64,000 nt of DNA from Solimonas aquatica (GTDB taxonomy: Bacteria > Pseudomonadota > Gammaproteobacteria > Nevskiales > Nevskiaceae), in assembly GCF_900111015.1 (NCBI RefSeq), contig NZ_FOFS01000007.1, forward strand, positions 124,001 through 188,000. The letters are read 5' to 3'. Within the stretch, counting starts at the first letter, position 1; every line of letters begins with the position of its first letter. The notes below the pieces were generated by a model. It was not told the DNA's origin. It worked only from the letters and a program-made list of their open reading frames with translations, and searched no databases. The translations under genes were made by a program, and so were the position numbers. Below, in pieces: positions 9,673-50,029 of this stretch.

Positions 9673-10893
9673 ATGGCCGTGAATCTTTCCGAACCCGCGC
9701 CGCTGCTGCCGATTGCCGGCCTGCGTCTGGGCAGTGCCGAGGCGGCGATCAAGAAGCCGGGTCGTCAGGACCTGCTGCTGATCGAACTGGCCGAGGGTTC
9801 GCGCGTGGCCGGTGTGTTCACCCAGAACGCCTTTGCCGCCGCGCCGGTGCAGCTGTGCCGTGAGCGTCTGGGCGCCAGCAGCGCGATCCGCGCGCTGCTG
9901 GTCAATGCCGGCAATGCCAATGCCGCCACCGGCACGGGCGGGCTGGACGATGCACGCGCCACCACCGCCGCAGTGGCGGCGGCACTGGGCTGCGCGCCGG
10001 AAGCGGTGCTGCCGTTTTCCACCGGCGTGATCGGCCAGCGCCTGCCGGTGGATCGCATGAGCGCCGCCATTCCCAAGGCCGCCGCCGCGCTGTCCGCCGA
10101 GGCCTGGAATGGCGCGGCGCGCGCGATCATGACCACCGACACCGTGCCCAAGGGCGCCAGCCGCCGCGTGCAGACCTCGCAGGGCGCGGTGACGGTGACC
10201 GGCATCGCCAAGGGCGTGGGCATGATCGAGCCGCACATGGCCACCATGCTCGCCTTCATCGCCACCGATGCGCGGCTCACCGCCGCTGCCGCGCAGACCG
10301 CGCTGCGCGATGCGGTGAACGAGTCCTTCAACTGCGTGACCGTGGACAGCGACACCTCCACCAATGATTCCTGCGTGCTCTGCGCCACCGCGCAGCTCGG
10401 CGCGCGCGAGGTCGGCGTGGACGATGCCGACTACGCGCTGATCTACGGCGCGATCCGCGAGGTCTGCGTGCAGCTGGCGCAGGCGGTGGTGCGCGATGGC
10501 GAAGGCGCCACGCGCTTCATCACCATCGAGGTCGGCGGCGCCGGCAGCGTGGCCGAAGCGCGGCAGGTGGGCTATGCCATTGCCAACTCGCCGCTGGTGA
10601 AGACCGCGATGTTTGCCGGCGACGCCAACTGGGGCCGCATCGTGATGGCCATCGGCAAGGCCGGCGTGGCAGGCCTCAATCCCGCGACCGTGGCGATCCG
10701 CCTTGATGATGTGCAGCTGATCGAAGGCGGCGAGCCGCATCCGGATTACCGCGAGGAGCGCGGCGCGGCGGTGGTGGCCAAGCCGGAGTTCACCATCGCC
10801 GTGGACCTGGGCCGTGGCAGCGCGCAGGCGCGGCTGTGGACCTGCGACTTCAGCTACGAGTACGTGAAGATCAATGCCGAGTACCGCACCTGA
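9673..10893 (+). CDS. argJ: Bifunctional glutamate N-acetyltransferase / amino-acid acetyltransferase
   Basis: Transfers the acetyl group from N-acetylornithine to glutamate (and often from acetyl-CoA), recycling acetyl in arginine synthesis. The precursor self-cleaves before a threonine inside the conserved HMATML motif, here between Ala190 and Thr191, giving alpha and beta chains. The 406-residue length fits. I chose the ATG at 9673 because AGAGG lies 7 bp upstream; an in-frame GTG two codons earlier is possible. The mutT-thiE fusion overlaps its 3' end by 20 bp. Confidence 0.97.
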   Translation: MAVNLSEPAPLLPIAGLRLGSAEAAIKKPGRQDLLLIELAEGSRVAGVFTQNAFAAAPVQLCRERLGASSAIRALLVNAGNANAATGTGGLDDARATTAAVAAALGCAPEAVLPFSTGVIGQRLPVDRMSAAIPKAAAALSAEAWNGAARAIMTTDTVPKGASRRVQTSQGAVTVTGIAKGVGMIEPHMATMLAFIATDARLTAAAAQTALRDAVNESFNCVTVDSDTSTNDSCVLCATAQLGAREVGVDDADYALIYGAIREVCVQLAQAVVRDGEGATRFITIEVGGAGSVAEARQVGYAIANSPLVKTAMFAGDANWGRIVMAIGKAGVAGLNPATVAIRLDDVQLIEGGEPHPDYREERGAAVVAKPEFTIAVDLGRGSAQARLWTCDFSYEYVKINAEYRT

Positions 10894-11851
10894 GGCGCGA
10901 GGCGTGACACCTGAGACGGGAGATGCGCTGCCGCTGATCCAGGTGGCGGCGGGTTGCCTGGTGGATGCACAGGGGCGGGTGCTGATCGCGCAGCGTCCGG
11001 AAGGCAAGATCGCGGCGGGGCAGTGGGAGTTTCCCGGCGGCAAGATCGAGCCGGGCGAGTCGGCGCGGGCGGCGCTGGCACGTGAGCTGCACGAGGAGCT
11101 GGGCGTGGAGGTGATCGAGGCCCGGCCCTTGATTGCGGTGACGCACGCCTACTCGGACCGCCGCGTGCGCCTGGATACCTGGAAGGTCACCGCCTGGCGC
11201 GGGCAGCCGCAGAGCCGCGAGCAGCAGGCCTTTGCCTGGGTGGCGCCGCAGGACATCGAGCGCTATCCGGTTCTCGCTGCCGACGGGCCGATTCTCGCGG
11301 CGCTGAAGCTGCCGGCGCATTACGTGTTCACCGCGCCGGCGCAGTGCGAGCCGGAGATCGTGGCCGGGCTCTCGCAGCTGCCGGCGAACGCGCTGCTGCG
11401 TCTGCGTCTGCCGGCGCTTGCCGATGCCGAGTACGCGGCGCTGGCGCAGCGGCTGCTGCCCCTGGTGCACGCCCGGGGCCTGCGTCTGCTGCTGGATCGC
11501 GCGCCGGCCCTGGTCGGCGAGCTGGGTGCCGATGGCTGGCACGCCACGTCCGCGCAGCTGCGGGCGCTGGACCAGAAGCCGGCAGGCCTGTGCATCGCTT
11601 CCTGCCACGATGCCGCAGAACTGCAGCGCGCCCGCGCGCTGGGCTTTGACGCCGCGGTGCTGGGCAGCGTGCTGGCCACCGCCTCGCATCCGGGCGGCGC
11701 GACGCTGGGCTTGGCGGCGGCGGGCGCGCTGACGCAGCAGGCGAATCTGCCGCTGTTCTGGATCGGTGGCTTGTCGCCGGCGGAACTGGACCGCGTGCAG
11801 CAGGCTTACGCGCAGGGCATCGCCGGCATCGGCGCTTACTGGCGGCGCTGA
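10874..11851 (+). CDS. mutT: MutT (Nudix) and thiamine phosphate synthase-like fusion protein
   Basis: 325 residues. The N-terminal Nudix hydrolase domain (about 20-150) has a complete Nudix box at residues 55-78, from GGKIEPGE to ELHEELG, as in 8-oxo-dGTP diphosphatase MutT. The C-terminal domain (about 165-325) resembles thiamine monophosphate synthase (ThiE/TenI) with GWHATSAQL, CHDAAELQRA, VLGSVLAT and WIGGLS. This fusion is common in gammaproteobacteria. Sanitisation of 8-oxo-dGTP is the likely activity; the ThiE-like part is of unclear function. The start lies inside the argJ tail, and the stop overlaps yacG on the opposite strand by 16 bp. Confidence 0.92.
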   Translation: MPSTAPEARGVTPETGDALPLIQVAAGCLVDAQGRVLIAQRPEGKIAAGQWEFPGGKIEPGESARAALARELHEELGVEVIEARPLIAVTHAYSDRRVRLDTWKVTAWRGQPQSREQQAFAWVAPQDIERYPVLAADGPILAALKLPAHYVFTAPAQCEPEIVAGLSQLPANALLRLRLPALADAEYAALAQRLLPLVHARGLRLLLDRAPALVGELGADGWHATSAQLRALDQKPAGLCIASCHDAAELQRARALGFDAAVLGSVLATASHPGGATLGLAAAGALTQQANLPLFWIGGLSPAELDRVQQAYAQGIAGIGAYWRR

Positions 11852-12048
11852 GAAGCCGCCATGTCCTCGCTCAGGGGCTCGTCCTCGGCGGGGATGCTGT
11901 AACGCTCCTCAAACCACTGGCCGAGATCGATCAGCTTGCAGCGTTCGCTGCAGAACGGCCGCCAGCGGTTCTCGGTTTCCAGCAGCGAAGGCTGGCTGCA
12001 CTGCGGGCAGCGGCCGCGACGCACGGACCGGCTCACAGATTGCAGCAC
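11836..12048 (-). CDS. yacG: DNA gyrase inhibitor YacG, zinc protein
   Basis: Small 70-residue protein with four cysteines binding zinc: Cys14 and Cys17 (CPQC), Cys33 and Cys37 (CSERC). The family is known to bind the gyrase GyrB subunit and inhibit supercoiling. The flanking RWRPFCSERCKLIDLGQW segment is highly characteristic. It overlaps the zapD stop by 16 bp and the mutT fusion gene by 16 bp on the other strand. The order pilD-coaE-zapD-yacG is conserved in gammaproteobacteria. Confidence 0.95.
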   Translation of the reverse strand: MLQSVSRSVRRGRCPQCSQPSLLETENRWRPFCSERCKLIDLGQWFEERYSIPAEDEPLSEDMAASQRRQ

Positions 12049-12812
12049 TGCAGGGCGAAGGGAATGTCCACGCGTGCCTGCTGGGCACGGGTGGCCAGAT
12101 CACGCACCTGCATGAAGCGCACCGTGAAGCGGTGGCGGCCGGCGCTGATTTCCGGATAGACCTCGGCGCTCTGCTTCACGTGCACGCGCACCAGCAGGCA
12201 GGGGCCGGTGGGCGTGTGCAGATAGATGCCGCTCTGCGCGGACAGGGTTTCCGCCGGGGCGCTGGCGCGCAGCAGGCGCAGGTACAGCTCGATGCCGCGC
12301 TCGAAGGGTTCCAGATCGGCGAACCAGGCTTTCAGATCGCGGTCGATGCGCTCGTAAGGCTGCGACAGCCAGTGCTGGAAATGCGGCAGGTCGAAGCCGC
12401 AGGTGCCGCCGGGTATTGTCGAGCGGTTGAGCACGCTGACCAGAAAATCGCTGCCGCGCAGCAGGGCGCTGGCGAACTGCGTGGTGAGCTGCTGGAAGCC
12501 GTTGATGGCGGTGGCCAGCTCGCCGAGCACGCCCTGCAGCTGCTCGCGGTTCTCGGCCGACTGCGCGGCCAGGCGCGTCAGGTGCAGATGCTGGTCGGAG
12601 AGTTCCTTGACGATGTCGGACTTCAGGTCCGAGCGCGAAATCACCACCAGCAGGTCCAGCAGGGAATGCAGGCTGGCGCGCACGCCGCACTGGCTGTGAT
12701 CGCGGCGATGGTGCCGGTGCTGGGCGAACAGCAGTTCCAGGCGCAGGAAGCTGCGCACCCGCTCGGTCAGCGGCTGCTCGAAAACCAGCAGAGACGGCGT
12801 CCCTTCCGACAC
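12033..12812 (-). CDS. zapD: Cell division protein ZapD
   Basis: Cytoplasmic FtsZ-bundling factor that stabilises the division ring. The sequence begins SEGTPSLLVFEQPLTERVRS, matching the usual ZapD N-terminus, and contains the long helical core and the GGTCGFDLPHFQHWL segment typical of the family (DUF1342). There is no ATG. I prefer the GTG at 12812 (259 aa); a TTG at 12833 would add seven residues and overlap the coaE stop by 4 bp. It overlaps yacG downstream. Confidence 0.93.
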   Translation of the reverse strand: MSEGTPSLLVFEQPLTERVRSFLRLELLFAQHRHHRRDHSQCGVRASLHSLLDLLVVISRSDLKSDIVKELSDQHLHLTRLAAQSAENREQLQGVLGELATAINGFQQLTTQFASALLRGSDFLVSVLNRSTIPGGTCGFDLPHFQHWLSQPYERIDRDLKAWFADLEPFERGIELYLRLLRASAPAETLSAQSGIYLHTPTGPCLLVRVHVKQSAEVYPEISAGRHRFTVRFMQVRDLATRAQQARVDIPFALQCCNL

Positions 12813-12829
12813 GCGGCTTGAATCCCGAA

Positions 12830-13498
12830 TCAATGGGGGCCGGAGATTCTGACGGACTCGGCAGGCTGCGGCAAACGCAGGCCCGGTGCACGCGGCGTGT
12901 TACGCGCCGCCAGATCGAGGTAATAGCGATGCAGCTCACGCACCGCCGCGCACAGGGCCTCGGGCGTACCCGCGTTGACCAGCACATCGTCGGCGGCCGC
13001 CAGGCGCTGGGCGCGCGTGGCCTGCGCGGCCAGCATCTGTGCGGCCAGCTCGGCACCGATGCTGTCGCGCGCCTGCAGGCGCGCCCGCTGCAATTCCTCG
13101 GGCGCATCCACCACCAGCACGCGCTGCACCAGGCTCTGCATGCCGCCCTCGATGAGAATCGCGACGCTGAGCATGGCGTAGGGCGCGGTCTGCTGCGCCA
13201 GCCAGTCGCGCATCTGCGCGCGGATCAGCGGATGGGTGATGGCCTCCAGCTCGCGTCGCGCCTCGGGCCTGGCGAAGACATGCTCGCGCATGCGGCGGCG
13301 GTCGAGCTGGCCATCGGCCTGCAGGAAGGCCGGCCCGAAGTGCGCGGCAATCGCCGCCAGCCCCGCCGAACCGGGCGCGACCACGGCGCGCGAAACCTGA
13401 TCGGCATCCAGCACCGGCACGCCGAGCGCTTCGAACTCGCGCTGGGCCAGGGATTTGCCGCTGGCGATGCCGCCGGTCAGACCGATGCTGAGGCTCAT
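12830..13498 (-). CDS. coaE: Dephospho-CoA kinase
   Basis: Phosphorylates the 3'-hydroxyl of dephospho-CoA, the last step of coenzyme A synthesis. The P-loop GLTGGIASGKS lies at residues 6-16, and the conserved VLDADQVSR and the HPLIRAQMRDWL segment follow. 222 residues versus about 206 in E. coli. The ATG at 13498 overlaps the pilD stop by 4 bp, so translation is probably coupled. Confidence 0.96.
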   Translation of the reverse strand: MSLSIGLTGGIASGKSLAQREFEALGVPVLDADQVSRAVVAPGSAGLAAIAAHFGPAFLQADGQLDRRRMREHVFARPEARRELEAITHPLIRAQMRDWLAQQTAPYAMLSVAILIEGGMQSLVQRVLVVDAPEELQRARLQARDSIGAELAAQMLAAQATRAQRLAAADDVLVNAGTPEALCAAVRELHRYYLDLAARNTPRAPGLRLPQPAESVRISGPH

Positions 13499-14361
13499 GA
13501 AGTCAGGAACTCGAAATACCAGCGCTGCAGCTGCGGGCCGAACACCAGCACCAGCCAGCCCGCAGCGGCGAGATAGGGGCCGAAGGGAATCGCACTGTGA
13601 CGGCCGGCGCGGCGCAGGACAATCAGCACGATGCCCACCAGCGCCGCCGAAATCGAGGACAGCAGCACGATGGCCGGCAGCGCCTGCCAGCCCAGCCAGG
13701 CGCCGAGCAGGGCCAGCAGCTTGAAGTCGCCATAGCCCATGCCTTCCTTGCCGGTGGCGAGGCGGAACAGCCAGTACAGCGACCACAGGCTCAGGTAACC
13801 GAAGGCCGCGCCCAGCAGCGCCGCCGGCAGCGGCGCGTAGATCGGCACCAGGGCCGCGAGCAGGCCCAGCCAGAGCAGCGGCAGGGTCAGGGCGTCGGGC
13901 AGCAGCAAGGTCTGAAAATCCATCACGGCCAGCGCCAGCAGCGTCCAGCTCAGCAGCAGGGCGGCGGCCAGCTGCGGGCTGTAGCCGAAGCGCCAGACGC
14001 AGGCCAGGGCCATCAGCGCAGCCGCCAGCTCCACCAGCGGATATTGCAGGCTGATGCGCGCGGCGCAGTGCGCGCAGCGGCCGCGCAATAGCAGAAAGCT
14101 CAGCAGCGGAATGTTCTGCCAGGGCCTGAGCGGGGTCTTGCAGTGCGGGCAGTGCGAGCCCGGCTGGAACAGATCCGCCGGCGGGGTTTCGGTCTCCGGC
14201 AGCTCCAGCACCGCGCGCGCCTCCAGACGCCAGGCGTATTCCAGCAGCGGCGGCAGACGCAGGATCAGCACATTGAGAAAGCTGCCGACGATCAGGCCGG
14301 CCAGACCTGCAAGCAGATACAGCAGGCTCGTGTTGCTGGCCAGCGCTTGGGTAAGGCTCAT
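13495..14361 (-). CDS. pilD: Type IV prepilin peptidase / N-methyltransferase
   Basis: Inner-membrane bifunctional enzyme that cleaves type IV prepilins (and type II pseudopilins) and methylates the new N-terminus. 288 residues. The cytoplasmic zinc site has two CxxC pairs, Cys71/74 and Cys96/99. The two catalytic aspartates are Asp148 (VMDFQT) and Asp212 (GYGDFK). About seven or eight hydrophobic segments are visible. It follows pilC after 20 bp, and its stop overlaps the coaE start. Confidence 0.97.
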   Translation of the reverse strand: MSLTQALASNTSLLYLLAGLAGLIVGSFLNVLILRLPPLLEYAWRLEARAVLELPETETPPADLFQPGSHCPHCKTPLRPWQNIPLLSFLLLRGRCAHCAARISLQYPLVELAAALMALACVWRFGYSPQLAAALLLSWTLLALAVMDFQTLLLPDALTLPLLWLGLLAALVPIYAPLPAALLGAAFGYLSLWSLYWLFRLATGKEGMGYGDFKLLALLGAWLGWQALPAIVLLSSISAALVGIVLIVLRRAGRHSAIPFGPYLAAAGWLVLVFGPQLQRWYFEFLTS

Positions 14362-40055: not shown

Positions 40056-40135
40056 GGCCCTGCTGCATTCCGGTGAGGCGCGCGCCGCGCCGCTGACGCA
40101 CAATTCCCCCATCCGAACGAAAAGGGGAGATGAAC

Positions 40136-41047
40136 ATGCTGTCCTTCGAAAATCGCGTCGCCATCGTCACCGGTGCCGGCAACGGCCTGGGCAGGCAGCA
40201 TGCGCTGGCGCTGGCCAGACGCGGTGCAAAGCTGGTGATCAACGATCTGGGCGGCGCGCGCGACGGTCGCGGCGGCAGCTCGGCGGCGGCCGAGGCGGTG
40301 GCGCAGGAAATCATCGCGGCCGGCGGTCAGGCCATCGCCAGCGGCGCTTCGGTGACCGATGCCGCGGCCGTGGAAGCGATGGTGGCGCAAGCGGTGGCCA
40401 AGTGGGGCCGCGTGGACATCCTCATCAACAACGCCGGCGTGCTGCGCGACAAGACCTTCAGCAAGATGACGCTGGAGGATTTCCGCTTCGTGGTGGAAGT
40501 GCATCTGATGGGCGCGGTGATCTGCACCAAGGCGGTCTGGGAGCGCATGCGCGAGCAGAACTACGGCCGCATCCTGATGACCACCTCGTCCACCGGCCTC
40601 TACGGCAACTTCGGCCAGTCCAATTACGGCGCCGCCAAGCTCGCGCAGGTGGGCCTGATGCAGACCCTGGCCCTGGAGGGCGCCAAGTACAACATCCGCG
40701 TCAACGCCCTGGCGCCGGCCGCCGCCACGCGCATGACCGAGGACATCATGCCGCCCGAGGCGCTGGCCAAGCTGCAGCCGGAAGCGGTGAGCGAGGGCAT
40801 GCTGCATCTGGTGTCGGAGCATGCGCCCACGCGCGCCATCCTCTGCGCCGGCGGCGGCGCGTTCGAGGCCGCGCACATCACGCTCACGCAGGGCATTTAC
40901 GTCGATGACTTCGGCGCCATCGCCGAGACCGTGGCGCAGCGCTTCGATCAGGTCCGCGCGCGAGAGAACGAGTTCGTGCCTGACAATGGCATGCAGCAAT
41001 CGGTGTTCGAGCTGGAGAAGATTCAGAAAGGCCTGAAGCGCGGCTGA
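40136..41047 (+). CDS. Short-chain dehydrogenase, multifunctional enzyme type 2 (HSD17B4)-like
   Basis: 303 residues. Rossmann fold with GAGNGLGR (about 13-20), NNAG, catalytic Ser in TTSSTG and Tyr/Lys in SNYGAAK. The NDLGGARDGRGG segment and the extended C-terminus are typical of the (3R)-hydroxyacyl-CoA dehydrogenase part of peroxisomal-type multifunctional enzymes. A fatty-acid or steroid beta-oxidation role is likely. GGGGAG sits 6 bp before the ATG at 40136, so I prefer it to the ATG at 40130. The DUF3617 gene follows after 2 bp. Confidence 0.9.
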   Translation: MLSFENRVAIVTGAGNGLGRQHALALARRGAKLVINDLGGARDGRGGSSAAAEAVAQEIIAAGGQAIASGASVTDAAAVEAMVAQAVAKWGRVDILINNAGVLRDKTFSKMTLEDFRFVVEVHLMGAVICTKAVWERMREQNYGRILMTTSSTGLYGNFGQSNYGAAKLAQVGLMQTLALEGAKYNIRVNALAPAAATRMTEDIMPPEALAKLQPEAVSEGMLHLVSEHAPTRAILCAGGGAFEAAHITLTQGIYVDDFGAIAETVAQRFDQVRARENEFVPDNGMQQSVFELEKIQKGLKRG

Positions 41048-41637: not shown

Positions 41638-43326
41638 TCAGCTGTCGAAGGCGCCGCCGGCCGCGAGCTTGCGATACACCTGCTGCGTACCCTGGAAGTT
41701 TTCCGGCAGCGCCGTTTCGCCGCCGCGACAGACCAGCGCGCCGGTGGACAGCAGCGAGCCCGCCATGCTGGTGGCCACCGTCACGATCTTGCGCACCATC
41801 AGGAAGGAATCCAGGACGCCGGCGGCATGCAGATCGCCGTAGCAGCCGCGCGCGGCGTCCAGACCGTGGAAGCAGTCCGCCTCGCTCAGCACGCGATCCA
41901 GGCACTCTTCGGGCTGATGGCCGCTGTTGCGCACCACCCAGGCAAACGGCGCCTGCAGTGCCGACAGCAGCGCTTCGGCGCCCAGCCGGGCATCGTCCTG
42001 CAGCGTGCTGAGGCGGCTCCTGGCGGCCAGCGCCGCGCGCAGCATGGCCACGCCGCCGCCGGGCAGCACGCCCGTGCTCGCCGCGGCCAGCAGGGCGCGG
42101 CGGCCGTTCTCGGCAATCGGCATCCTGGCCTTGATCGCCACGTCCGTCGCCCCGCCCAGCTGCAGGCTTGCGGTGGCGCCGAGCAGGATCTGCAGGCGCT
42201 CCTGGCATTTGTCGCTGTGATCGAGCTGGCCGCTGGGGGAGGCCGTGCTGCGGCCCGAGCCTTCCATCTCGCTGCGCAGCAAGGCGATGCGGTCCTGCCG
42301 CTCGCGGGCATCGCCATGCGCGCCGTGCAGGATCGCGCTGCCGGCGTCCACCACCGCGCGATCCACACTGCCCAGATCGTCGCGGGACAGCGCGGCGATC
42401 GTGCGAAAGCCGTTCTCGACGAACGCGCTGCCGCCGCACAGGGCCGCCAGATCGCCCAGACATTCCTGGCGGGTGTCGCCGAACATCGGCGCTCTGACCA
42501 CGGTCACATCGACCACGTTTTCGCGGGCATTGCGGACGATGGCGGTGCGCACGCCATCGGAGACATCGCCGGCCAGAATCAGCAGCGGACGCTGCTCGGC
42601 ACGGGCGATCTCCATGGCCGGAATCAGGGCCTGCAGATCATCGAGTTCGCCATCGTGCAGCAGCGTCAGGGGCCGCAGCAGCTGACGTTCACCCGCAGAC
42701 GCCGGCAGGCCGCTGGCCAGCAGGAGGCTTTCGAAGCGGTGACCGAGTTTCACGTCCAGCACATCGTGCATGGCATTGCCCATCTCGATCTTGATGACGC
42801 CCTCGCTGCCGACACGCGCATACGCATCGGCGAGCAGCGCGGCCAGCGGCGCATCGCCGTTGACGGCGGTGCGGGCCACGGCCTGCAGTGCGTGCTGATC
42901 CGCCGGGCGCGCCATCGCCGCCAGCTCGCTGAGCACCGTGGCGCCGGCCATCGCCAGGCCATAACGCATTTCGCTGACATTGAGCGGATGCGAGCTGGCG
43001 GCCATGCAGCGCGTCGCCAGCGCCGCCGACAGCACGATGGCGGTGGTCGTGCCGTCACCCACGGAAGCGGAAATGCTGATCGCGGCATCCCGCAGCAGGC
43101 GCACGCCCATCTCCTCCTCGCGGCCGGCGACTTCCATGGTGCGCGCGATCTCGACGCCGTCCTTGCTCAGGCGCGGTGCCAGACCGCTGCGATGTTCCAG
43201 GATGACATGCCGTCCACCAGGGCCCAGGGTGACCGCCACCACCTCGGCCAGGATGCGCATGCCCGAGGACAGCTTGCCCAGGGCACCGAAGCCGTCGCTC
43301 ACCCGGCAGTTCTTTCCATTAGTCAT
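41638..43326 (-). CDS. mmoG: GroEL-like chaperonin of the di-iron monooxygenase operon (MmoG-type)
   Basis: 562 residues, group I chaperonin fold throughout: VTLGPGGRHVIL (33-44), SKDG with Asp56 (E. coli Asp52), GDGTTTA (90-96) and GVLPGGGVAML. Such divergent GroELs accompany soluble methane, butane and propane monooxygenases and are needed for folding the hydroxylase or for its regulation. The position matching the ATP-hydrolysing Asp398 of GroEL is Asn407 here (AENGRRALLAA). The usual GGM-repeat C-terminus is absent. It overlaps the 103-residue gene by 8 bp. Confidence 0.9.
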   Translation of the reverse strand: MTNGKNCRVSDGFGALGKLSSGMRILAEVVAVTLGPGGRHVILEHRSGLAPRLSKDGVEIARTMEVAGREEEMGVRLLRDAAISISASVGDGTTTAIVLSAALATRCMAASSHPLNVSEMRYGLAMAGATVLSELAAMARPADQHALQAVARTAVNGDAPLAALLADAYARVGSEGVIKIEMGNAMHDVLDVKLGHRFESLLLASGLPASAGERQLLRPLTLLHDGELDDLQALIPAMEIARAEQRPLLILAGDVSDGVRTAIVRNARENVVDVTVVRAPMFGDTRQECLGDLAALCGGSAFVENGFRTIAALSRDDLGSVDRAVVDAGSAILHGAHGDARERQDRIALLRSEMEGSGRSTASPSGQLDHSDKCQERLQILLGATASLQLGGATDVAIKARMPIAENGRRALLAAASTGVLPGGGVAMLRAALAARSRLSTLQDDARLGAEALLSALQAPFAWVVRNSGHQPEECLDRVLSEADCFHGLDAARGCYGDLHAAGVLDSFLMVRKIVTVATSMAGSLLSTGALVCRGGETALPENFQGTQQVYRKLAAGGAFDS

Positions 43327-43630
43327 CGTCTTGCCTGTTCGTGTTGAGATGCTTCATTGCGCTGCGCCCGACGTCCCGTCGCAGGGCGTGCAGCTTCGCC
43401 AGCCGGGCCCAGGTCCACAGCAGCTTGCGCTCCCAGTAAGCCAGGGAGTTGCGGACCTCGATCCCTTCTTCCCGATCGAGGCGCTGCTCGAACAGCGCCT
43501 GCAGTCGTTCAATCTGTTCCGCGCCCAGCTTCTCGTGCAGCATCTGACGCCGTTCTTCCAGACGAAGGATTTCCTCATCCAGCGCCCGCGCCGCATCGGA
43601 GAAAAAGAATTCGATCTCGTCGCTGCTCAA
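43319..43630 (-). CDS. Small helical protein of unknown function in the monooxygenase operon
   Basis: 103 residues, strongly charged and helical, with a likely coiled coil from about 14 to 55 (LDEEILRLEERRQMLHEKLG) followed by a Trp-rich helix (AYWERKLLWTWARLAKLHAL). I do not recognise a family. It overlaps the chaperonin start by 8 bp, so the two are translationally coupled, and is separated from mmoC by an inserted element. A role as an assembly partner of the chaperonin or hydroxylase is conjecture. Confidence 0.7.
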   Translation of the reverse strand: MSSDEIEFFFSDAARALDEEILRLEERRQMLHEKLGAEQIERLQALFEQRLDREEGIEVRNSLAYWERKLLWTWARLAKLHALRRDVGRSAMKHLNTNRQDDD

Positions 43631-43654
43631 GCCGGCCTGCTCCCTGGCTGTGCC

Positions 43655-43926
43655 TTAGAACCTATCCGTGAATTGCGCACGTCTGCGTTGCTGCCGAAAA
43701 TCGCGCCGGGCAAGGCGCGAAACGCAGGCCTTGGTGGTTCCAAGGCCAAGTTTCGCAACGCCGCACGGCGCGATTTTCGGCGCAACCCTTTCGGGACGGG
43801 GCCGTTTTGCCGCAGGGCGGCGTTGGCAGCCGCTTGCTTGGAACCACCAAGCGGCGCGTCTGCCGCCTTGCCCTGCGGCAAAACGACCTCCGTCGCAGAC
43901 GCGCGCAATTCACGGATAGGTTCTTA
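43655..43926. mobile_element. Miniature inverted-repeat element with TTA target duplication
   Basis: The element spans 43658-43923. The ends GAACCTATCCGTGAATTGCGC and its exact complement form perfect terminal repeats of about 21 bp. Direct TTA repeats flank it (43655-43657 and 43924-43926), a TNA-type target duplication seen with IS5-family transposons. The interior has two more long inverted repeats (GCCGAAAATCGCGCC/GGCGCGATTTTCGGC and CCGTTTTGCCGCAGGGC/GCCCTGCGGCAAAACG), so it can fold extensively. No gene inside. Confidence 0.85.
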
Positions 43927-44979
43927 GCCGCCACTGGCCACGAACTCCTCGCGGTGGACCCTGTGTTCCGGAATGTTCAGGCGTTCGCAGCTGGCACGCG
44001 TGGCCTCGACCATCGCGGCCGGGCCGCAGATGTAGACCTCGGGCTTGCGCGCGAGCGCAGCGAAATGCTGCTCGAAGGCCGTCACCGCATTGCCGGTGTA
44101 GCCCTGCCATTGCGGCGGCGGATCCATCAGCGCCAGATGCAGGGTCAGGCGCGGCATCGAAGCCGCCAGCTCGCGCAGCTCGTCTTCGTAGTACAAGGCC
44201 GCCTGATCCTGCATGCCGAAGAACAGATGGCATTCGCCGCGATAGTCCTGGCGCGCCAGCCCACGCAGCATGCTCAGCAGCGGCGCAAGGCCGGTGCTGC
44301 CGCCGACGAAGGCATGGAGCCCTTCGTCCTGATCGCCGGGCTGGAAGGTGAACGCGCCGAGCGGGGCGCGCAGCTTCAGAACGTCGCCGGGCACGGCGCG
44401 CTGCTGCAGATAGGTGGAAAAGCAGCCGCCCGGAACCAGGCGGATGAGGAATTCCAGAAGTCCGGAATCGTCCGCAATGTTGGCGAAGGAGAAGGCGCGC
44501 GTCTGCTCGCCGTCCGGCAGCTGCAGCTCTGCATACTGCCCCGGCTGGAACTCGATGCGCTTGGCTTCGTGGCTCACGGGGTCGCGCACCTGCAGCAGCA
44601 GCTTGTAGACCGTGCTGGACAGGCGTTCGACGATTTCGACCTGCGCTTCAAGATTCTCGCTGCTGCAGCTGCCCAGGCGGTCGCTGGTGTAGGGGAAGGC
44701 CAGCGCCATGTCGCTGCGCGGGAAGGTGTCGCAGGCAACCACGACGCCATCTTCTTCTTCCTTGGGCGAGAGCACCTGCACATTGACGCGATCGCCGAAG
44801 GCATATTCGCCTTCCATGCATAAGGCCTTGCAGCTGCCGCAGAAGGCCTTGCGGCAGGAGCACAGCAGAACCACCTGCTGGCGCAGGGCGGCGCTCAGAA
44901 TGTCTTCGTTCTCCGCGCATTCGAACTGGTGCAGAGCGCCATCCTCGAAATTGGCGGTAATGGTGTAACGGCTGTCCAT
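43924..44979 (-). CDS. mmoC: Soluble methane monooxygenase-type reductase component
   Basis: NADH-dependent reductase that feeds electrons to the di-iron hydroxylase. 351 residues (M. capsulatus MmoC is about 348). The N-terminal plant-type [2Fe-2S] ferredoxin has cysteines 42, 47, 50 and 83. The FAD-binding motif is RAFSFAN and the NAD-binding segment GGSTGLAPLLSML. The stop codon TAA is formed by the TTA target-site copy of the adjacent inserted element, so the last residues may not be ancestral. Preceded by mmoD after 62 bp. Confidence 0.95.
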   Translation of the reverse strand: MDSRYTITANFEDGALHQFECAENEDILSAALRQQVVLLCSCRKAFCGSCKALCMEGEYAFGDRVNVQVLSPKEEEDGVVVACDTFPRSDMALAFPYTSDRLGSCSSENLEAQVEIVERLSSTVYKLLLQVRDPVSHEAKRIEFQPGQYAELQLPDGEQTRAFSFANIADDSGLLEFLIRLVPGGCFSTYLQQRAVPGDVLKLRAPLGAFTFQPGDQDEGLHAFVGGSTGLAPLLSMLRGLARQDYRGECHLFFGMQDQAALYYEDELRELAASMPRLTLHLALMDPPPQWQGYTGNAVTAFEQHFAALARKPEVYICGPAAMVEATRASCERLNIPEHRVHREEFVASGG

Positions 44980-45041
44980 GCTTTGAAAAAATCCCCGGAA
45001 ATGAAATTGAATTGACTGGTTCTGATGGCTGAGCGGCCGGC

Positions 45042-45338
45042 TCAGCTCGGATCGTTCGGCGAAGCTTCATCGCCCGCCGCGATCAGCCGCGCCACCGTGG
45101 GGCGCCTGAAGAAGCCGATCTTGCCTTTGGCACTGACGATGCAGCTCTCCACCCGCAGGGCGCTGCCGGTGTGCAGGTGACGGTCGCCTTGAAACAGGTC
45201 CCAGCGCAGCAGCATTTCGAGTTCTGTCGCGTAAACCCGGAACTCGCCGTCCTCGTGGATCAGAACGGTGGCGCCGACTGCCTGCGGGAGTCCATCCAGC
45301 CTCGGAATGGCCGGGGTGTCGCCGCTTCTGGTGTTCAC
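45042..45338 (-). CDS. mmoD: MmoD-like regulatory/assembly protein
   Basis: 98 residues in the position of mmoD, between the gamma subunit and the reductase. It shares the MmoD pattern recalled from M. capsulatus: Y-A-x-x-L-x-x-x-x-R-W (here YATELEMLLRW) followed by an (S/A)L-x-x-ES stretch (SALRVES). MmoD binds the hydroxylase and is implicated in assembly and in copper-dependent control of sMMO expression. Overlaps the zinc-ribbon gene by 4 bp. Confidence 0.8.
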   Translation of the reverse strand: MNTRSGDTPAIPRLDGLPQAVGATVLIHEDGEFRVYATELEMLLRWDLFQGDRHLHTGSALRVESCIVSAKGKIGFFRRPTVARLIAAGDEASPNDPS

Positions 45339-45577
45339 GATTCGTCTCCGCCCGGCGCGATGATCGAATGAAAGCGGTCGTTGCGGGTGTGCGCGATGTA
45401 ATCGTTCTTGCGCACATCCTCATCGCTGGGAAACGACACGATCTGCTCCTTGCATCGCGGGCAATGCAGCCTGCCGCCGACGCTCAGGGTCATGCCCGCG
45501 GAAAACTTGTGCGCGCAGGCGCCGCACTTGTAGCTGTATTCGAACTGCTTCGTGCTCAGCTCGTCTGGATATTTCAT
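45335..45577 (-). CDS. Small zinc-ribbon protein in the monooxygenase operon
   Basis: 80 residues from the ATG at 45577, preceded by a strong GGAGGAG. Four cysteines in two CxxC pairs (Cys18/21, Cys39/42) form a zinc ribbon; a basic and acidic tail follows. This gene is not part of the standard mmoXYBZDC set. Tight coupling to mmoD (ATGA) suggests joint action, perhaps in metal handling or assembly. Function unknown. Confidence 0.8.
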   Translation of the reverse strand: MKYPDELSTKQFEYSYKCGACAHKFSAGMTLSVGGRLHCPRCKEQIVSFPSDEDVRKNDYIAHTRNDRFHSIIAPGGDES

Positions 45578-45636
45578 CTCGCTCCTCCCTCGCGCCGGAT
45601 GACGATGCGGGCCAGCCCGCCGCACTTGGCGAGCGT

Positions 45637-45678
45637 CCCTCGTGAGCGGGGCGCGCAGGCGCACCCCGCTCACGAGGG
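45637..45678 (-). promoter_or_regulatory. Perfect 15-bp-stem hairpin between mmoZ and the zinc-ribbon gene
   Basis: CCCTCGTGAGCGGGG (45637-45651) pairs exactly with CCCCGCTCACGAGGG (45664-45678), loop 12 nt. No T-tract follows in the direction of transcription, so it is more likely an mRNA stability or processing element than a terminator. It divides the hydroxylase genes from the mmoD-mmoC part. Confidence 0.7.
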
Positions 45679-45692
45679 CTCGCGCATCGTGG

Positions 45693-46199
45693 CTACTGGA
45701 CGTGTATGGGCGTCACGTTACGGGCCTTGCGCAGTTCCTCGATCGGCGTCACCAGATAGTTCTCGGCGCGCAGCTTGAGGAGCTTGCTGACCAGCTTCTT
45801 CTCCACCGGGGCGAAGTAGTTGATCGGCATCATCGGCGGCTTGCAGGCCTTGCGGTACGCAACGCAGAGCTGGCCCAGTTCGATGGCGGAGTCGACTTGC
45901 GCGGCTTTCTCCCACCAGCTGTTCGCGACCTCGCGGGCGCAGCGGCCGTCGATGGTCTTGTGCAGCAGATCGTCATCGGACAGCGTTTCCTCGGCGTGCA
46001 GCTGCGAAACCCGCATCTCGATGCGCGATTCGATCCAGTTGGCTTCCTTCTTGAGATCGTAGGTCTTGCGGTCGGGACCCAGATGCTGCTCGCGGAAGTT
46101 GCGCAGCATCTCGATGCCCTCGCGGGCGGTGCGCAGGGTGCCGATCCGTTCCAGCCACTCATCGCGCGTGGGAGTGTGGTACCAGTGCTGTTTGGACAT
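45693..46199 (-). CDS. mmoZ: Di-iron monooxygenase hydroxylase gamma subunit
   Basis: 168 residues (MmoZ is about 170), all-helical small subunit of the (alpha-beta-gamma)2 hydroxylase. The family features WYHTPTRDEWLERI at the start, EANWIESRIE in the middle and the C-terminal PIEELRKARNVTPI are recognisable. It is 10 bp downstream of mmoB. The alternative frames covering this stretch lack any family match. Confidence 0.92.
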   Translation of the reverse strand: MSKQHWYHTPTRDEWLERIGTLRTAREGIEMLRNFREQHLGPDRKTYDLKKEANWIESRIEMRVSQLHAEETLSDDDLLHKTIDGRCAREVANSWWEKAAQVDSAIELGQLCVAYRKACKPPMMPINYFAPVEKKLVSKLLKLRAENYLVTPIEELRKARNVTPIHVQ

Positions 46200-46209
46200 T
46201 GTCGTCTCC

Positions 46210-46626
46210 TCAGTAGACGCTATCGATCTTCGTTTCCAGGCCCAGCAGTTCGTTGGTGAGGACGAACTGATTGCCCAGTGTCATGGCCCGGCCGATGGTG
46301 GTGCTGACGTTGACCAGGAAGTCATAGACCGTGTACTTCTTGCCCAGGATTTCCGTGGCTTCGTCGCAGTCGATCACGATCTTGCCGTTGACCTTGATCC
46401 ACCAGTAGCCGCCCCTGTCGTCGACGGCCAGCGCGGGGTTGTCATCCATCATCGGCCGGATCATTTCATCGACGATGACGTTGATCTCCTCGGTCTTCAT
46501 CAGCGCCAGCACCACCGCGTCACTGGTGGGCAGCGTGCAGTTCTTCTCCGAGAGGAATTCGTCGACGAAGGCCTGTCCGGTCTTGTTGTTGGTTCCGGAG
46601 TTGTATCCGTTGATATTCGTGCTCAT
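46210..46626 (-). CDS. mmoB: Di-iron monooxygenase coupling/effector protein
   Basis: 138 residues (MmoB is about 141), the cofactorless effector that docks on the hydroxylase and gates oxygen and substrate access. DRGGYWWIKVNGKIVIDCDE and YDFLVNVSTTIGRAMTLGN closely follow MmoB. The flexible N-terminus, important for regulation, begins MSTNINGYNSG. The ATG at 46626 has an AAGGGGA ribosome-binding site. It lies 14 bp after mmoY. Confidence 0.95.
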   Translation of the reverse strand: MSTNINGYNSGTNNKTGQAFVDEFLSEKNCTLPTSDAVVLALMKTEEINVIVDEMIRPMMDDNPALAVDDRGGYWWIKVNGKIVIDCDEATEILGKKYTVYDFLVNVSTTIGRAMTLGNQFVLTNELLGLETKIDSVY

Positions 46627-46640
46627 GGTCGATCCCCTTC

Positions 46641-47816
46641 TCAGTAGCCTTGCATCACGTCGGCGATGAATGCTTCGGCGTCGAAGCGGTAGTCGATCGG
46701 CTCGGCGAAACGGCGCGCCCAATCGTTGACGATGCGCCGCACCGCGGCCTCGACGCTCGCCTTGCAGGTGATGCCCTCGACCTGCAGCGGCAGCGTCTTG
46801 TAGATGGCCAGGAAGGCCTTGAGGGCGGCCTGCGTGCCGGGCAGATAGCGCTTGGTCCAGGCGCGCAGGTAGCGACGGTTGTGCGCGCCGTACACCGGCT
46901 CTTCATCGATCAGCATCTTCACGCAGAAGGCCTGCAGGGCATCGCTGGCCTGCTGGTGATAGGTGAGTGCCTGCGACTGGATGAACGGCGTCAGGGTGTC
47001 GCCATGCAGGCCCGCCAGGCGCTGGAAGAACTCGCGACGCACGAACTGGCCGAAGATGTGATCGTAGATGCCGTGAATCGCCCACAGCTGCTCGACCCAG
47101 TCATAGACGCCCATCCAGATGTGCTGGACGAACTCGCGCGCCGGCTGCCAGATCGGGTCCTGCATCCAGGCCTGCTTGGCGGCGGCCAGGCTCGGGTCGA
47201 AGTCGGCGAACAGCTTGCCGAGCAGGATGCGCTCCATCTGGATCATCTGGCCGGCGTCGTTCTTGTCGAAGCCCGCCTCGGAAATCCAGGTCTTCAGCAG
47301 ATCGGACAGTGCGCTGTAGACGGTGGTCGAGTGCGCGCTGAACAGGCCGTACTCGTTGTAGACCAGGGCGCCGTAGTGCGTGCCGAGAATCTGGTTGCGC
47401 CAGTCGGCATTCATCATGCCGGCGTCGCCGCTTTCCGCCCAGCTCTTCATGGTGCGCTCGGCAGTCTGACCTTCCTCGGTCTTCTGCTTGACGTAGGGCA
47501 TGAACCAGCGCTTGGCCGGATCGCGGAAGTAGAACCAGTTTCCGGCGATCACCGCGGTGGATTCGATGCTGTAGTTGGGACGCCCGCCCGGCCACTTCTG
47601 CACCGACTCGCCAACCTCCTGGCTGCCGGGCACCGAGTCCACGGAGTTCTGTGCGTGCAGCATCACGGCCTCATACTCGGTGAGGCGCCGCCAGCCACGC
47701 TTGGCGAAGGGAATGTGATCGCGCTTGCTCTCGAGCGGCTGCTCGGGAATGGCGGCCTGGATGATGGTCTGGCGATAGGGATCGACCATTCCTCTGACAA
47801 AGCTATTGGAAGACAT
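46641..47816 (-). CDS. mmoY: Di-iron monooxygenase hydroxylase beta subunit
   Basis: 391 residues (MmoY is about 389). It starts MSSNSFVRGMVDPYRQ at 47816 with an AAGGAA ribosome-binding site. Family segments include KRGWRRLTEYEAVMLHAQ, YFRDPAKRWFMPYVK and HIWMGVYDWVEQLWAIHGIYD. It has the ferritin-like helical fold without iron ligands and supports the alpha subunit dimer. A 158-bp hairpin-rich gap separates it from the GFA gene. Confidence 0.95.
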   Translation of the reverse strand: MSSNSFVRGMVDPYRQTIIQAAIPEQPLESKRDHIPFAKRGWRRLTEYEAVMLHAQNSVDSVPGSQEVGESVQKWPGGRPNYSIESTAVIAGNWFYFRDPAKRWFMPYVKQKTEEGQTAERTMKSWAESGDAGMMNADWRNQILGTHYGALVYNEYGLFSAHSTTVYSALSDLLKTWISEAGFDKNDAGQMIQMERILLGKLFADFDPSLAAAKQAWMQDPIWQPAREFVQHIWMGVYDWVEQLWAIHGIYDHIFGQFVRREFFQRLAGLHGDTLTPFIQSQALTYHQQASDALQAFCVKMLIDEEPVYGAHNRRYLRAWTKRYLPGTQAALKAFLAIYKTLPLQVEGITCKASVEAAVRRIVNDWARRFAEPIDYRFDAEAFIADVMQGY

Positions 47817-47909
47817 GTTCTGTTCCTTCGTGAAAGACGTCGAAGTAGCAGGAGCCCACCCCTGCCCGTGCTGGGGCAAGGCTCCGTAAGCGCTGAGGGA
47901 GAAACCGGG

Positions 47910-47948
47910 CCCGGCTCGCGTCGGCGCCGCCAGAGACGGCGAGCCGGG
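47910..47948 (-). promoter_or_regulatory. Intercistronic hairpin between the GFA gene and mmoY
   Basis: CCCGGCTCGC (47910-47919) pairs with GCGAGCCGGG (47939-47948), and the loop can pair further (GTC/GAC). Smaller hairpins flank it (GGCCGGTTCCCGGCC nearby, and GCCCCAGCACGGGCAGGGG toward mmoY). Likely mRNA structure elements within the operon. Confidence 0.55.
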
Positions 47949-47974
47949 CGCGGCCGGTTCCCGGCCACCGCTGT

Positions 47975-48382
47975 TCAGCCGGGCATGCGCGCGAAGCTCG
48001 GCAGGCCGGCGGCGATCTGATGGAACGGTTGCTGGTCAACCGTGAAGATCGCCACCTGCGGGCCGCCAAAGGCGTCCGGGCGGTCCAGCGTGCCGAGCTT
48101 GATCACCGTGGTGCCGGGCAGTGCCGGGGAGTGCGTCACCATGTGGGTGCCGCATTCCGGGCAGAACTCGCGGCTCACCGGATTTTCCAGATCGCTGCGC
48201 CGGAACTGCTTGACCTTGCCTTGCAGATAGCGGAAGCCGGAATCCGGCACCACCACGCAGACATTGGGACTGCCACCGGAAATGTACTGGCATTCCCGGC
48301 AGTGACACTGGGCGACCAGTGTCGGCTCGGCGTCGATCTCGTAACGCACGGCCTTGCAGTAGCAACCGCCCTGGATTTTCAT
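47975..48382 (-). CDS. GFA/CENP-V family zinc protein inside the monooxygenase operon
   Basis: 135 residues with the complete GFA cysteine set: Cys7 and Cys9 (GGCYCK), Cys26, Cys28, Cys31 (CHCRECQ), and Cys74, Cys77 (FCPECGTHM). The founding member was described as glutathione-dependent formaldehyde-activating enzyme, though most family members have no proven activity. A GAGGAG ribosome-binding site precedes the ATG. Insertion between mmoX and mmoY is not part of the classical sMMO operon. Confidence 0.88.
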   Translation of the reverse strand: MKIQGGCYCKAVRYEIDAEPTLVAQCHCRECQYISGGSPNVCVVVPDSGFRYLQGKVKQFRRSDLENPVSREFCPECGTHMVTHSPALPGTTVIKLGTLDRPDAFGGPQVAIFTVDQQPFHQIAAGLPSFARMPG

Positions 48383-48436
48383 GCTTGCTCTCCTCTTTGT
48401 GATGGATGCGGTGTCGTGCCGCATCCCGCTGGGTGG

Positions 48437-50029
48437 TCAGTGCGCAGGCTGCCAGTTCAGGATCCGCATCGGATCGGGAACGGTGAAGTTGATGCGCTTG
48501 AGATCGTCCAGTGTCCACATGTCGGTGGAACGCAGATGCGGCTGCGCCATCAGGGTCTTGCCGTCGCTGCGCACGCCGCCCGCGGCCTTCACCAGATCCG
48601 ACAGTTCCCAGCCTTCGAACTGCTCGAAGAAGTTCTGGAATTCATAACGCTCCGGCTCCTGCAGCCACATGCGCTCGCCGTGCGGTTCGGAGAAGGCGAA
48701 GCGCTTGCCGTTCTTTTCCAGGAAGCTGGGCTTGAGCGCGCCCTTACCCAGCGTCGGGCAGAACGGCAGCGAGGAGGTGTGGTCGATGAAGATGCCGTGT
48801 CCGCGCTGCAGCATCCAGACCGCGCCGCTGAATCCGGAGCGGGGATCCTCGAAGCCCAGGGCGCGCCACTCTTCGTAGATCTTGCCGTAGTGCTCGTACC
48901 AGCCCGGATAGTTGGCTTCGAACCATTCCATGTCCTGACGGTCCGGCAGCTCCAGGCGGATGCCGGTCAGCGGCCACAACGCGAAGGCCAGCAGCGCCAG
49001 ATCGTGATGCGCCCACACCGCGTCCTTCTTGGCATCGGCCAGGCACTTGGGCGACTTCAGGCCGAACTGCTGCAGGCGGCCCAGCCAGATGCCGGCCCAG
49101 TCCTCGTACACCCAGCGGTTCCAGGACTTTGCCCAGGGCTCCACCTTGAAGCGCGAACCGTACTCCAGCGCCGCGCCGACGAAAGGCGTGAGGAACTTGT
49201 GCTGGGTCCAGAACGCGTTGTCGAGATCGGTCTGCAGATACTTCATCGTGTCCGGGTTGTTCATGATGGAGACGATGGTCTGATAACCGTTGGCCATGTG
49301 CCGCAGCTCATCGGTTTCGATCGACAGGAACACGGTCGGGGTGATCTCGTCGCCATTGGCGGCCGCCCATTCGGTCAGCGCCACGATCAGCGGATTGGTG
49401 AAGCAGGCCTCGGCCACCAGCTGCAGATTAATCGAGCTTTCCACCGCGTCGCCGGCGAGGAAGCCTTCGCCGAAGGCGCGCTTGACGCCCGGGTACAGCG
49501 GGTTGATCGCGCGCAGCTGGCGCATGTTGGTGAAGCCGGCCGGATCGTAATAGTGCTTGCTGTAGTAGTAGCTGACCGAGGCGCACTGATTGACGTGGCG
49601 GACCTCGTCGATGACCTGCGCCAGATAACCGTTGCGCTGTTCCGGCGACTGCGCCGTGTCCCACAGCAGCGCCGAACCGGCGAGCGCGCCGTATTCACCG
49701 GTTTCGAGGAAGTTGGCAACCAGCTTCATGAACTCGCCCCAGCGCGGATGCACCTTGTTGCCGGCGTCGAGACGATCGAGTCCGTCGAGCAGGGTGCCGA
49801 ACTGGCGTTCTTCCTTGGCCGACTCCATGCGCGCGTACTCCTTGGCGGTGAGCTTGAACTGCTCGCGCGTGTTGACGTCCATGTCGTACTTGGTCGGATA
49901 CTTTCCGGCCTTTTCCTTGAAGTCCCAGGTGAAGTCCTGCAACCACTTGTGGACTTCCTGCGGATCGACGCTGCTGGGCGCCGGATTGTTCTTGAGGGCC
50001 TGCTTCACAGCCAGGTTCGATGCTGCCAT
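48437..50029 (-). CDS. mmoX: Group III soluble di-iron monooxygenase hydroxylase alpha subunit (MmoX-like)
   Basis: Catalytic subunit of 530 residues (MmoX is about 527). Iron ligands, with M. capsulatus numbering two higher: Glu112, Glu142 and His145 (DEVRH), Glu207, Glu241 and His244 (DELRHM). Pocket residues Leu108, Gly111, Cys149 and Thr211 match Leu110, Gly113, Cys151 and Thr213 of MmoX. Similarity runs end to end, including a 20-residue stretch from EACFTNPLIV and the ETDELRHMANGYQ region. AGGAAG precedes the ATG. First structural gene of the operon. Confidence 0.97.
   Translation of the reverse strand: MAASNLAVKQALKNNPAPSSVDPQEVHKWLQDFTWDFKEKAGKYPTKYDMDVNTREQFKLTAKEYARMESAKEERQFGTLLDGLDRLDAGNKVHPRWGEFMKLVANFLETGEYGALAGSALLWDTAQSPEQRNGYLAQVIDEVRHVNQCASVSYYYSKHYYDPAGFTNMRQLRAINPLYPGVKRAFGEGFLAGDAVESSINLQLVAEACFTNPLIVALTEWAAANGDEITPTVFLSIETDELRHMANGYQTIVSIMNNPDTMKYLQTDLDNAFWTQHKFLTPFVGAALEYGSRFKVEPWAKSWNRWVYEDWAGIWLGRLQQFGLKSPKCLADAKKDAVWAHHDLALLAFALWPLTGIRLELPDRQDMEWFEANYPGWYEHYGKIYEEWRALGFEDPRSGFSGAVWMLQRGHGIFIDHTSSLPFCPTLGKGALKPSFLEKNGKRFAFSEPHGERMWLQEPERYEFQNFFEQFEGWELSDLVKAAGGVRSDGKTLMAQPHLRSTDMWTLDDLKRINFTVPDPMRILNWQPAH

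Follow-up and report, generated by a model that had tools for sequence, protein, structure and literature searches.

A 64,000-nucleotide stretch of the Solimonas aquatica genome (RefSeq assembly GCF_900111015.1, contig NZ_FOFS01000007.1, positions 124,001 to 188,000), hereafter the window, harbors a soluble di-iron monooxygenase operon between positions 41638 and 50029. This locus is very probably a complete butane monooxygenase (BMO)-type operon, belonging to the BMO branch of group III and acting on C2-C4 and nearby alkanes. We see here an enzyme of known type in a host new for it, unusual in a single inserted gene, and not a new methane oxidiser. Judging from its gene content, the host is best read as a broad hydrocarbon oxidiser with a C2-C4 alkane hydroxylase; growth on methane is possible and is not indicated.

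The operon comprises ten open genes on the minus strand, running from 50029 to 41638 in the order X-GFA-Y-B-Z-zinc ribbon-D-C-MmoE-GroEL, and all frames are intact. This bears out a preliminary description of the window, which had proposed a complete operon of X-Y-B-Z-D-C order with a GroEL-like gene, an order that is kept only when the inserted GFA and zinc ribbon genes are skipped. The 530-residue hydroxylase alpha subunit X (bmoX/mmoX type, 48437..50029) was identified with Pfam, MmoX structures and alignment. A GFA-family zinc protein (47975..48424; Pfam) separates it from the beta subunit bmoY/mmoY (46641..47816), which is followed by the 139-residue coupling or regulatory protein bmoB/mmoB (46210..46629) and the gamma subunit bmoZ/mmoZ (45693..46199). 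Y, B and Z were each assigned from Pfam, from NCBIfam matches below cut-off and from locus comparison. A small zinc ribbon (45335..45580; 81 residues counted from the first ATG), known from matches below cut-offs, lies between Z and D. Its stop overlaps the GTG start of the gene for the 98-residue MmoD-like protein (45042..45338), which was recognized from a weak match to TIGR04550 and locus comparison. The NADH reductase bmoC/mmoC (43924..44979), with 2Fe-2S, FAD and NAD domains, was assigned from Pfam, from NCBIfam below cut-off and from locus comparison. Finally, a 103-residue orf1/MmoE-type protein with a TTG start (43319..43630; locus comparison and literature) is encoded directly 5' of the GroEL-like chaperonin bmoG/mmoG (41638..43326; Pfam, NCBIfam and locus comparison). 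Two gene pairs overlap in the operon overall. Ribosome-binding-like sequences precede X and also GFA, which has an alternative ATG start near 48382 with a GAGGAG ribosome-binding-like sequence before it.

Seven of the products (X, Y, B, Z, C, GFA and GroEL) score above Pfam cut-offs, the zinc ribbon has matches below cut-off only, and the 98- and 103-residue proteins have no Pfam match. Z reaches 130.4 bits against the MmoZ-type gamma subunit family (PF02964; cut-off 25), and X aligns with solved chains of MmoX along some 508-521 residues (best E value 9.8e-249), far past chance. Five products fall short of the NCBIfam equivalogs for methane monooxygenase (MMO), with scores against cut-offs of 412/700 bits for Y, 171/245 for B, 142/230 for Z, 350/500 for C and 25/80 for D (TIGR04550, 25.1 bits, E value 1.1e-5). 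X and the 103-residue protein match nothing in NCBIfam at an E value of 0.01. As controls, the Thauera proteins also lie below all five cut-offs, whereas those of Methylococcus pass the four cut-offs for which they were scored (Y, B, Z and C). Since Thauera misses these cut-offs too, the shortfall characterises the branch and does not point to decay.

We performed a pattern scan of 84,980 species genomes, which revealed 81 relatives of X; 80 of them were retained, and trees were computed without three partial X sequences (L076, L083 and L088). X shares 87.5% identity with HGW-Betaproteobacteria-11 (L009), 87.2% with BmoX of Thauera butanivorans (L010) and 83% with two Rhodospirillales metagenome-assembled genomes (MAGs; L011-L012) and Acidiphilium sp. 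STC_13 (L013). The remaining 75 relatives stand at 61-67%, save one cut-off sequence at 70% (L076); identity is 63.4% to MmoX of Methylococcus (L032) and 64.5% to that of Methylocella (L026). The window and the five closest loci form a six-row BMO branch, with an SH-aLRT (Shimodaira-Hasegawa-like approximate likelihood ratio test) support of 97 in a quick 86-row tree and 95 in an earlier quick tree. A careful tree, built from 32 of the 86 rows chosen by hand, gives the branch 93/95 support and recovers it in 90% of 200 bootstrap trees. The sister of the window inside the branch is unsure, being L009 plus L010 in the careful tree (94/90) and left open by both quick trees. The alpha subunit groups with MmoX/BmoX, in keeping with the group III placement proposed earlier, and apart from the other soluble di-iron monooxygenase groups (group I/II rows being present in one tree only). 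Identities of the other products to the BMO loci and to the rest of the 80 are 68-75% versus 38-44% for Y, 67-80% versus 45-58% for B, 60-70% versus 31-41% for Z, 56-57% versus 36-43% for C and 47-56% versus 29-36% for GroEL.

Residues of X were compared, in Methylococcus MmoX numbering, with 77 other group III rows, 72 of which are outside the BMO branch. All six di-iron ligands, at what we take to be their positions (E114, E144, H147, E209, E243 and H246), are present in the letters read from the alignment. Further positions were chosen in view of site-directed studies of the Thauera enzyme and of the structures of MmoX. There, X carries the same residues as T. butanivorans (Gly116, Leu282, Phe285, Gln323 and Phe324), and the two also agree at 289. 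The 72 non-BMO rows always have Asn116, Phe282 and Lys323, together with Val, Ala or Ile at 285 and Tyr324 in 71 rows; the residue of the window is found in none of them at 116, 282, 285 and 323, and in one at 324. Within the BMO branch, Acidiphilium (L013) departs from the other members at 116 and 323. The letters of X at 118, 153, 155, 168, 262 and 519 are absent from all 77 other rows. Ser153, Ser155 and Phe168 are unique to the window among the 78 group III rows, in which position 155 (Asn) and position 168 (His) are otherwise invariant.

By analogy with these relatives, the operon is predicted to be expressed and its subunits to assemble into an (XYZ)2 hydroxylase. Electrons from NADH would pass through C to the carboxylate-bridged di-iron site of this hydroxylase, which would be gated by B. 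O2 would be split and one atom inserted into a C2-C4 or nearby alkane, mainly giving 1-alkanols, while D, MmoE and the GroEL-like protein may help the hydroxylase to fold and to take up metal. The alcohols would then be oxidised by pyrroloquinoline quinone (PQQ) alcohol dehydrogenases, whose genes lie at other sites in the genome, and carried on to acid metabolism. The Thauera enzyme converts ethane, propane and butane to mainly primary alcohols, according to the consulted portion of PMC10560718. The probable short-chain alkane oxidiser of the preliminary description is a reading that we share.

Several observations weigh against the assignment to an alkane-oxidising BMO-type operon. Both the expression and the activity of the operon are predictions from sequence. 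Support for the branch is good and not overwhelming, at 90% of 200 bootstraps, and the tree tool flagged long outgroup branches. Residue 151 is Cys in X, as in 68 of the 72 non-BMO rows, and Thr in the other five BMO rows; this residue, typical of soluble methane monooxygenase (sMMO), and the missing local regulator separate the window copy from that of Thauera. No sigma-54 -24/-12 pattern is present within 500 bp upstream of X, and the contig of the operon has no BmoR-like gene. Among the adjacent genes scanned, no member of an alcohol dehydrogenase family was found except a short-chain dehydrogenase. Finally, Methylocella tundrae PC1 and PC4 possess a more distant BmoX-like cluster and do not grow on butane, as stated in an excerpt of PMC7660913, so that a bmoX-like gene alone is no proof of butane growth.

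The host genome assembly, which is 98.43% complete, was searched for further hydrocarbon and C1 genes. The pmoA-family, methanol-dehydrogenase-type and RuBisCO genes that the preliminary description had suggested looking for are present elsewhere in the genome. Two operons for copper membrane monooxygenases, of C-A-B order (xmoCAB), were located (C11:163516-164268 and C21:110236-110925), and their A subunits are only about 38% identical to each other. Copper membrane monooxygenase genes have been reported in S. aquatica, in the section of PMC6215863 that was consulted. The cut-offs for AmoA/AmoC and for the methane/ammonia families are reached neither by the two A subunits nor by the C subunit of C11; the C11 B subunit passes AmoB and misses the methane/ammonia B cut-off (383 versus 395 bits). 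Relatives of the C11 A subunit at 72-77% identity occur in 7 of 58 other genomes, including two congeners and one genome from another family; one further genome and a second copy stand at 41-42%. A hydrocarbon cluster on C21, within about 25 kb of xmoCAB, includes genes for an aldehyde dehydrogenase, an acyl-CoA ligase, a BmoR-like activator and a CopD-cytochrome protein. The same cluster encodes an AlkB-type desaturase-rubredoxin fusion and a PQQ alcohol dehydrogenase whose C-terminus bears a haem motif. Five PQQ alcohol dehydrogenases exceed the cut-off in the whole genome, and the alcohols made by the operon are likely to have consumers in the host.

The region C30:42000-60000 encodes a PQQ dehydrogenase, presumably of the XoxF type by its motif. 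Its neighbours include genes for MoxJ-like, cytochrome, MoxR-like and S-formylglutathione hydrolase proteins, and the region also encodes the gamma subunit of formate dehydrogenase together with a NuoF-like partner. Ankyrin repeats are fused to the MoxJ-like protein (L110:10579-12234). A RuBisCO large subunit gene on C11 adjoins that of an AAA protein, which we take for CbbX. C1 oxidation to CO2 is plausible in this host on the basis of these genes. With the C30 cluster, the RuBisCO gene, the two copper membrane monooxygenase operons and the sMMO-like Cys151, the window operon could be taken for a true methane monooxygenase, whose product would pass from methanol through XoxF, glutathione-linked formaldehyde oxidation and formate dehydrogenase to CO2 fixed by RuBisCO. 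We consider this unlikely, as X is placed in the BMO branch, both PmoA-family proteins lie below the AmoA and methane/ammonia A cut-offs, and fae was not found in the host genome, which, judged by this marker, leaves no tetrahydromethanopterin route. T. butanivorans itself does not grow on methane, according to the extracts consulted. A methane monooxygenase in the narrow sense, as the label 'methane-monooxygenase-type' would have it, was dropped on the branch placement (93/95) and on the NCBIfam cut-offs with their controls, since none of Y, B, Z, C and D reaches them, as in Thauera. Another improbable picture is that of a bacterium from a non-methanotroph genus living on whole natural gas, in which the BMO-type enzyme and both copper membrane monooxygenases would attack C1-C4 alkanes, the XoxF and glutathione steps would lead to CO2 and RuBisCO would allow autotrophic growth on methane in addition to propane and butane.

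Four further soluble di-iron monooxygenase alpha genes lie within about 25 kb at C16:100641-126012, and another four hits to this family appear to represent the corresponding second subunits. Enzymes of group III accept a broad range of substrates. These two points would suit a chief use of the window operon on short alkenes, on chlorinated or aromatic compounds or in co-oxidation instead of on gaseous alkanes, a very remote prospect given that the nearest relative to have been characterised acts on alkanes.

The preliminary description had also held that three extra genes make the operon distinct, which stands for GFA only. The zinc ribbon occurs at the same position in 2 of the 80 other loci (L012 and L013); Thauera has there a different 96-residue reading frame, which we take to be DUF4242-like. 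The 103-residue protein is orf1/MmoE, which tblastn found in 65 of the 80 loci, several of them clipped by contig ends, and it lies at most 700 bp 5' of the GroEL-like gene in all 65. A new gene is thus ruled out at this position, and orf1/MmoE has already been discussed as a possible MmoG partner (PMC9324122, in the part consulted). GFA is found in none of the 80 other loci. Of the 76 loci in which X and Y are both matched, 75 have the two matches 50-280 bp apart, and the remaining one, L048, has a tandem second X. GFA is, from these comparisons of predicted genes, the one real peculiarity of the operon. A dedicated formaldehyde enzyme was considered and rejected, with 19.4 bits against S-(hydroxymethyl)glutathione synthase (TIGR02820; cut-off 234.55). 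Because GFA is so far below the formaldehyde-activating equivalog, no C1 role can be read from its name. Relatives of GFA at 49-62% identity exist in three same-family genomes (G012, G015 and G026), and the other own-genome and congener matches are at or below 38% among the matches listed. A source of GFA within the family is thus possible.

The insertion of GFA raises the question of whether the operon is silent or decaying after its acquisition, split between X and Y and separated from its regulator. Besides the absence of GFA from all 80 other loci and the X letters at 153, 155 and 168 found in none of the 77 other rows, such a state would fit with the lack of a sigma-54 pattern and of a local BmoR-like gene. 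A sigma-54 promoter was looked for within the 500 bp upstream of X and not found. Sigma-70 promoter-like sites (1 found versus 1.1 in shuffles) and terminator-like sites (6 versus 6.5) are no commoner than in shuffled sequence. T. butanivorans has a sigma-54 site at -91, and a strict match occurs in only L010 and L013 of the six BMO-branch loci. Four long BmoR-like relatives (38-42% identity) are encoded elsewhere in the host genome. Against decay stand the ten open frames, the intact di-iron ligands, the two overlapping gene pairs and the ribosome-binding-like sequence of GFA. Third-position GC in the operon genes (0.77-0.88) is also inside the range of the remaining gene calls in the window (0.72-0.92), in a gene-call scoring trained partly on the operon's own genes. 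We thus regard a silent or decaying operon as quite improbable, and an intact BMO-type operon remains our preferred reading.

Among 100 genomes searched for X, including its own, 10 congeners and 47 same-family genomes, 21 have some match. The best match outside its own genome reaches 39% identity (G015), followed by 38% (G026), and both group with the propane-type outgroup in the tree, outside group III. No close relative of X is found in the 10 congeners or the 47 same-family genomes, with a maximum of 39% identity, which indirectly supports the earlier view that the host is outside the known sMMO methanotroph genera. To the right of the operon, a proline iminopeptidase-like gene and a lytic transglycosylase gene adjoin each other in all 10 congeners. 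The left block (ARD, aldolase, MgtE, ABC and short-chain dehydrogenase genes, the last at 40130-41047) stays together in all five congeners examined, which were chosen for a clear orthologue of the short-chain dehydrogenase. In these five the left and right blocks are on different contigs, and none of the left-block genes is present in the 13-15 kb beside the congeners' iminopeptidase gene. The operon and a DUF3617 gene thus sit at a synteny break. GC content is 64.6% in the operon versus 67.9% in the rest of the window. With no close relatives of X in the related genomes searched and a break in synteny, acquisition of the operon by this species via horizontal transfer is likely. A plasmid origin was examined and rejected: 69 of 72,556 plasmid records matched, none at 60% identity and the best at 57.4%.

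The closest known system is bmoXYBZDC with bmoG of T. butanivorans, which has the same order X-Y-B-Z-D-C-E-G and shares 87% identity with the window for X, 74% for Y, 77% for B, 70% for Z, 54% for D, 57% for C, 45% for MmoE and 47% for GroEL. The window differs from it by the GFA gene between X and Y, the zinc ribbon replacing the 96-residue frame, Cys151 in place of Thr, and the absence of a sigma-54 pattern in the 500 bp upstream and of a BmoR-like gene on the contig. Loci L012 and L013 have the zinc ribbon, D, C, MmoE and GroEL in the order of the window, L012 being clipped at a contig end. L009 and L011-L013 belong to the same branch in other host lineages and have no GFA (L011 is clipped after Z). 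The sMMO operon (mmoXYBZDC, orf1/mmoE and mmoG) shares the architecture, subunit set and di-iron ligands of the window operon. It differs in sequence, X being 63-65% identical to Methylococcus and Methylocella MmoX, in the residues at 116, 282, 285, 323 and 324, and by the NCBIfam cut-offs that Y, B, Z, C and D miss. The alpha subunit encoded on pMYCCH.01 of Mycolicibacterium chubuense NBB4, which we take to be SmoX, shares 55-57% identity and has a DUF4242 gene nearby; it lies outside the BMO and MMO branches, as sister to the 78 BMO and MMO rows. BMO-type operons outside Thauera have already been published, as bmoXYBZDCG of Rhodoblastus PC2/PC3, which is likened here by the description in part of PMC9213486 and stands outside the tree and the sequence comparison. 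No paper reporting this operon type in hosts such as Solimonas was found among the papers listed from open-licence PubMed Central.

The BMO branch thereby gains a host from a genus whose 10 other searched species lack such an operon. The Cys151 that this BMO-type subunit carries naturally may be useful in testing which residues set the preference of group III enzymes for methane or for longer alkanes. In ecological terms, the operon is a further example of why an mmoX-like gene should not, on its own, be taken as a sign of methane oxidation.

Two other genomes from the locus comparison have unusual arrangements. The Acidiphilium MAG STC_13 carries its BMO-branch operon (L013) and an MMO-side group III operon (L052) on separate contigs, which is either real or due to a mixed bin. 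In the Methylophilaceae MAG P-RSF-NP-02, two near-identical mmoX genes (L049 and L050), with fetched flanks free of Y, B, Z and C matches, lie elsewhere on a contig that has tandem mmoX copies ahead of mmoY (L048, about 10001-13600).

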